DNA from: Nitrospiria bacterium
Lineage (GTDB): Bacteria > Nitrospirota > Nitrospiria > DASWJH01
Direction of reading: 5' to 3'
NCBI GenBank assembly: GCA_036397255.1
Contig: DASWJH010000094.1
Coordinates: forward strand, 1 to 57,375
DNA length: 57,375 nt
The number at the start of each line of letters is the position of its first letter. The stretch's first letter is position 1. The notes under the pieces were generated by a model that ran no database searches, was not told the origin of the DNA, and saw nothing but the letters and a program-made list of their open reading frames with translations. Made by a program: the position numbers and the translations under genes. This document shows positions 19,706 to 20,151 of this stretch, in pieces.

Positions 19706-20151
19706 TTAGCGGGTCACCCCATCTCGAGCAGTTTGGTCCACGACCTGGGTTTTTGCCAATTCATCCCCCACTCGCCAACCTTTTTCGTTACCCAAAACCA
19801 GGAAACCCTCCACCCCTAAAATTAGGCAAAAAAAAACCATCCCACATAAGGAACACAAAAAAGAACAAATCCAAACACAATGGGAAGGTTCCTTAAAATA
19901 GACAAACGAAAAGGATTGATTTCCGATAATTCACGGGAAAGAACGGTTATCCCCAATAGATATTTCCCCAAACTTTGTCCCCCCGCAAATCCATCGGCAA
20001 TCAATAAGTACAACACCCCGGCATAAAAACCCACCGGCTGTAAAATTTGAGACAGAGCCATAGCAATTAATAAATCAATGGATTTTGCAATGGCCCGATT
20101 CAGGTTATTTGCTTTTGGAAAGGCGTTATCTACTTCTTCATCTGCTTCCAT
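19706..20151 (-). CDS. RDD-family membrane protein, split by a -1 frameshift at a T9 run
   Basis: In frame from ATG 20151 the gene encodes 109 residues: a charged N-terminus, [10 protein letters not shown] as the first helix, [11 protein letters not shown], and a helix ending GWFFFA, then TAA at 19824-19822. At the nine-T run (19836-19828 on the minus strand) reading one base twice opens a further 40 codons, giving [10 protein letters not shown]... [12 protein letters not shown]... and a stop at 19706. GD-LA-T-VV is the normal RDD C-terminal motif, so the ~148-residue product is the real family length. The corrected stop falls 13 bases before mreB. Either programmed or transcriptional slippage, or a single-base sequence error. 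Function of RDD proteins is poorly defined (some act in Na+/H+ exchange). Confidence 0.8.

Follow-up and report, generated by a model that had tools for sequence, protein, structure and literature searches.

A one-base frame break at a run of nine T interrupts an RDD-family gene on the minus strand of the window, the whole stretch of 57,375 nucleotides that was analysed. It is best explained as a singleton in which the T run slipped without any programming, through a sequencing or consensus error or a recent indel, and the probability of this reading is estimated at about 85%. In this reading, an ordinary RDD-family membrane-protein gene heads the mre operon and is one base short, in the assembly, at its longest homopolymer; the missing base interrupts the frame within the last membrane segment. 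The slip would have its source either in a sequencing or consensus error, for which the odds are about even, or in a recent indel that arose by replication slippage in the organism sampled, which is somewhat less probable. In either case, the slip does not appear to have been selected for. The frame break is accurately observed and is an ordinary one.

The features of the locus are as follows.

19822..20151, minus strand: RDD-family gene, first frame, 109 codons plus TAA; N-terminal part, matching positions 68-120 of 137 of Pfam RDD
19828..19836, minus strand: run of nine T (T9), the break point, codons 106-108 (TTT TTT TTT), localised by the family profile
19706..19827, minus strand: remaining part of the RDD gene, 40 codons plus TAA, read in the -1 frame
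19690..19692, minus strand: GTG start of mreB, 13 nt beyond the RDD stop
18658..19692, minus strand: mreB, intact, 344 aa (Pfam MreB_Mbl, 8.2e-151)
20205..20232, minus strand: promoter-like TTGAAA-16-TATAAT with TG before TATAAT, ahead of the RDD-mreB operon; a consensus match only

The 109-aa open reading frame (ORF) ends in ...PYVGWFFFA*, inside the last hydrophobic segment, and its stop lies one codon past the run, which appears on the plus strand as nine A at 19828-19836. The first of the 40 codons of the -1 frame uses the last T of the run, and the stop codon of this frame is at 19706-19708. The arginine R19 and the aspartate D26 of the first frame are invariant in 17 aligned sequences. 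A purine-rich stretch that resembles a ribosome-binding site, AAAGGGGG, is seen by eye ahead of the mreB GTG. Downstream of the RDD gene come mreB, mreC and, farther along, a gene of the FtsW/RodA type, and the RDD gene is therefore placed at the head of the mre operon. Promoter-like sites as such are about as numerous as in shuffles, with 2 in the region for 1.7 expected. The preliminary description of this DNA had reported a 109-residue frame that ends in GWFFFA and is split at T9, and the ORF coordinates and the translation bear out both points; the same is true of the -1 shift on T9 that opens 40 further codons up to a stop 13 nt ahead of the mreB GTG. That the C-terminal RDD motif is carried on in the -1 frame is confirmed by the translation and by the gain in family profile score given below, and the place of the gene at the head of the cell-shape (mre) operon agrees with the downstream gene content. 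On the other side, the divergent neighbour at 20435-21247 (plus strand) encodes a 270-residue protein in which no isomerase domain is found with Pfam at E 0.01, and matches to a SurA-like N-terminal domain extend over residues 1-164.

Comparison with related genomes gives no second example of the split. The search covered 98 genomes, 97 from the class besides that of the window, and matched the RDD gene in 80, a count that includes the window's own genome. All 79 relatives come from other orders of the same class; in 79/79 the gene is unbroken through the C-terminal motif and in 0/79 is it split, the motif being recognised by pattern in 77 and by eye in two, L134 (GDEMART) and L135 (GDEVGETRV). 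Within a span of 12 codons from the tryptophan, T runs were surveyed in those relatives, 76 of 79, that can be placed by motif; the longest at the break site has seven T in one genome, six in another and at most five in the remaining 74. A closer relative was sought in the genus and in the order, where only the own genome was found. A search of the genomes of named species, from which near records may be omitted, returned one distant relative, a Nitrospiraceae assembly with 37% identity. Across the phylum, 253 of 295 genomes match, and the open frame of the window (113 aa) is the shortest among the matches listed. Programmed frameshifts are recognised by a transition and a slip site that are conserved across genomes, and here the split is present in none of the 79 relatives. 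A phase-variable gene would have both a run kept in relatives and on and off forms within its species; the run is not kept in the relatives, all of other orders, which bears on the first of these two signs only. What is found among the genomes examined is the pattern of a singleton frame break, which occurs in one genome only and has protein matches across the break.

The same comparison bears on whether the two frames could be translated as separate polypeptides. An ATG of the -1 frame exists at 19838-19840, just ahead of the run and overlapping the end of the first frame, and a restart of translation there would give a C-terminal half of 44 residues to pair with the first half of 109 residues. 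This arrangement has next to no probability and is rejected because no ribosome-binding-like sequence is seen by eye ahead of the ATG. It would also cut a membrane segment in two, and it is at odds with the one-chain RDD protein of all 79 relatives.

The two pieces on either side of the run fit a single protein. The 109-aa piece matches Pfam RDD (PF06271) with an E value of 4.7e-6 and 27.4 bits, for a cut-off of 24.1, over profile positions 68-120 of 137. Two intact relatives that were tested match the domain through to 137/137, and since the match of the 109-aa piece stops at 120, it is the -1 frame that carries the rest of the domain; taken alone, the -1 piece (43 aa) gives no Pfam match. 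A family profile was built from 75 of the 79 relatives, the divergent L133, L135, L136 and L137 being left out. The 109-aa frame alone scores 119.6 bits against it. A -1 shift placed in codons 105-109 raises the score to 173.2-174.3 bits, with lower values for shifts placed upstream; a two-base skip in the same codons gains less (168.3-168.9 bits) and a +1 shift gains nothing (119.2-119.9 bits). The gene thus matches RDD above the gathering score and, with the -1 piece adding 54.7 bits to the family profile score, reaches the C-terminal end. The spacing between a conserved tryptophan and the next glutamate is nine residues in 76/76 relatives with this motif (it is absent from 3/79, L135-L137), and also nine, as counted by eye, in the -1 reading of the window. 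Together with the position at which the profile places the shift, this spacing indicates that the window is one base off relative to the family, and that it is so at the run. Judged by these alignments, the fit of both pieces to one family is beyond chance.

The C-terminal piece was also compared with that of intact relatives for signs of decay. It scores 63.1 bits and the N-terminal piece 117.7 bits, a C/N ratio of 0.54. In 75 relatives (again without the four divergent ones) this ratio ranges from 0.36 to 0.61 with a median of 0.42, similar sequences being left out of the scoring. The value for the window lies within this range, so the C-terminal piece is not decayed. Preservation on a par with intact relatives points to a recent event, an error or a rescued gene.

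Loss of the C-terminus would probably be of consequence for the protein. A characterised member of the family, the RDD protein of Halobacillus andaensis, is described as an Na+(Li+,K+)/H+ antiporter (PMC5996927). Like the gene of the window, it has, at its first membrane segment, a conserved arginine and a first conserved aspartate, neither of which is reported there to be needed for transport, and a last conserved aspartate near its C-terminus that is reported to be indispensable for it (PMC5996927). In the window, as opposed to the Halobacillus protein, the C-terminal conserved aspartate (in GDELA) lies only in the shifted frame. By its position in the motif, and without an alignment, this aspartate would be the counterpart of Halobacillus D154. 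If so, the last aspartate, needed for transport, is on the lost part, and a product of 109 residues would probably not function as an RDD protein.

A built-in mechanism that makes both products from the nine-T form would be programmed -1 ribosomal frameshifting on T_TTT_TTT, aided by the nearby stop codon and by a downstream RNA structure. The heptamer, which lies in codons 106-108, has the phase required and a stop one codon on, and the 95-nt stretch past the run has a better fold than 197 shuffles out of 200 (3/200 as good; z -2.33). Against this, the hairpin of the 95-nt fold leaves no gap to the run, and folds as good occur in 518 of the 12,079 coding windows of equal size in the window. 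Stimulatory RNA structures usually sit a few nucleotides past the slippery heptamer. At the expected spacing, the 50-nt stretches that start 5-8 nt past the run fall between the 0.47 and 0.53 quantiles of coding windows, at about their median, and no stimulatory structure stands out there; the 62-nt stretch from the stop codon has a z of -0.66. A weak hairpin at 19790..19827 (minus strand, -11.7 kcal/mol) was considered as a stimulator and rejected, as it adjoins the run without a spacer. No ribosome-binding-like stimulator is seen by eye upstream of the heptamer. The heptamer itself is commonplace, with 63 in-frame copies among the 267 ORFs of 200 or more codons that were sampled from the genome, and it is not a conserved site, with 0/79 relatives split and T runs of at most seven in the 76 that can be placed. 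In E. coli, according to a review, U_UUU_UUU is much less shift-prone than A_AAA_AAG (PMC5009743). Programmed frameshifting at this site is accordingly judged highly improbable.

The preliminary description had put forward two products, by ribosomal shifting or polymerase slippage, with a single-base error as the simple alternative. As a built-in feature of the locus, the two products find no support in the split (0/79 relatives), in the run (0/76), in the RNA structure, which is average at the usual stimulator spacing, or in the heptamer, which is commonplace. It had also held that a continuous frame in close relatives would make the break an assembly error, and alignment of the locus gives a continuous frame in 79/79, though all are of other orders. 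A single-base error was rightly named as the simple alternative.

Frame breaks of this kind have been treated on a larger scale by Antonov et al. 2013 (PMC3711429), in whose account sequencing errors, and not true indels, are the expected source of singleton frame breaks confirmed by protein matches. The case described here resembles their singletons in that it concerns one genome, has a homopolymer at the break, has intact relatives (79 here) and has pieces that fit one family; it differs in that the genome here is a 122-contig assembly. The singleton reading is favoured by the absence of the split from all 79 relatives, the 54.7 bits gained in the -1 reading, the undecayed C-terminus and the fact that this is the lone one-base split in the 117 kb covered by a homology scan. 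A sequencing error is the best reading, and a recent indel is not far below it. A C-terminal piece kept so perfectly would also be expected if the full-length protein were still made from the broken frame. For annotation, the gene should be flagged as frame-broken, and not entered as a shorter RDD protein.

How often such breaks occur elsewhere in this genome was assessed in a sample of 20 stretches plus the window, 446,059 bases in all. For the homology scan, 1089 ORFs from 1.2 Mb of one relative were compared with the 446 kb sample, of which 117 kb were covered. Runs with both flanks in covered stretches number 145 of length at least seven (110, 30 and 5 of length 7, 8 and 9). The scan flagged three splits, among which the RDD break alone fits one base. 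With one clean case in 117 kb covered, the assembly does not look riddled with homopolymer errors; for the same reason, as errors do not seem frequent, an error exactly at T9 is without special support. The other two flagged sites, in the same genome (L074 near 7500 and L080 near 8100), have frame changes beside T6 and A6, matches of 26-32% and gap misfits of 11 and 29 nt, and are not clean one-base splits; they are possibly broken genes or simple divergence. A coding-potential scan also flagged the RDD run, together with many other places; judged by length and position, most of these others are gene borders or intergenic runs, and they were not counted as splits. At about 5200-11000 of another stretch (L076, G000:C13), changes of frame in the coding potential are clustered, with several at A6 runs, and may mark decayed genes.

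The T9 run as such is not rare in this genome: with both strands and overlapping copies counted, 3.35 Mb contain the 9-mer 460 times. Homopolymers of nine or longer, whichever the base, number 61 in the 446 kb, and 19 of these fall well within ORFs of 200 aa or more. Within genes, the picture depends on run length. Relative to the expectation from 30 synonymous-codon shuffles of 267 ORFs (at least 200 aa), T9 is seen 2 times for 6.3 expected, runs of ten or more T 2 times for 5.5, and runs of ten or more A once for 8.7. A9, with 11 seen for 14.1 expected, is near expectation, and A or T runs six and seven long are commoner in genes than the shuffles predict. The scarcity of long runs is as expected if slips are harmful there, and it may arise in part from counting only ORFs of at least 200 aa, from which genes broken by a run drop out. 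Avoidance of long runs is described as common in bacteria (PMC1088944), whether due to polymerase slippage, replication slippage or both.

These counts bear on a further explanation, in which RNA polymerase slips on T9 and adds a base in some transcripts, so that proteins of 109 and about 148 residues are made and the organism tolerates or uses the mixture. In bacteria, runs of nine A or T are documented sites of slippage (PMC1088944, PMC5009743), and an interrupted gene rescued by slippage on a longer A run has been described (PMC4256274). The undecayed C-terminal piece is compatible with a full-length protein made in this way, and the scarcity of T9 and of A or T runs of at least ten in the genes of this genome fits a slippage that is real and costly. 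That scarcity fits replication slippage equally well, however, and A9 is near expectation; as a feature of the locus, slippage is opposed by the relatives, of which 0/79 have the split and 0/76 of those placeable have the run. A leaky full-length product through polymerase slippage on T9 is thus possible and, as an account of the break, unlikely. More doubtful still is the idea that the nine-T form is real and that polymerase slippage would set the ratio of truncated to complete RDD protein, as a lineage-specific leaky switch next to mreB.

Two described systems illustrate what such slippage would resemble. In Shigella mxiE (PMC1088944, PMC5009743), as here, two overlapping frames meet at a slippage run and are joined by one added base; there, slippage on the T run is reported to be required for the longer product, whereas the present arrangement is known from sequence alone and lacks conservation. 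In Citrobacter rodentium tssM1 (PMC4256274), also a membrane-protein gene, a premature stop lies right past a homopolymer and relatives are longer, as here; slippage there is on A11 and both forms are reported as shown and needed, whereas the arrangement here recurs in 0/79 relatives. Slippage is reported for a Yersinia tssM as well (PMC4256274). If the run of the window were real and leaky, it would add another rescue of a broken gene by homopolymer slippage, in this case beside mreB.

Apart from the break, the gene has a conserved neighbourhood. The RDD match is missing from 18 of the genomes searched, 12 of which belong to one family (f12), and all 12 genomes of this family that were searched are without it, so that the RDD gene seems absent from that clade. 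Wherever the gene is present in relatives of the class, mreB lies within 600 nt downstream (79/79). The single full-text literature match for 'RDD family' together with 'mreB' is, by its title and abstract, a Bacillus proteomics study. The pairing of RDD and mreB across the class suggests that the RDD membrane protein is linked with the cell-shape operon, and this conserved pairing is probably of longer-lasting use than the frame break.
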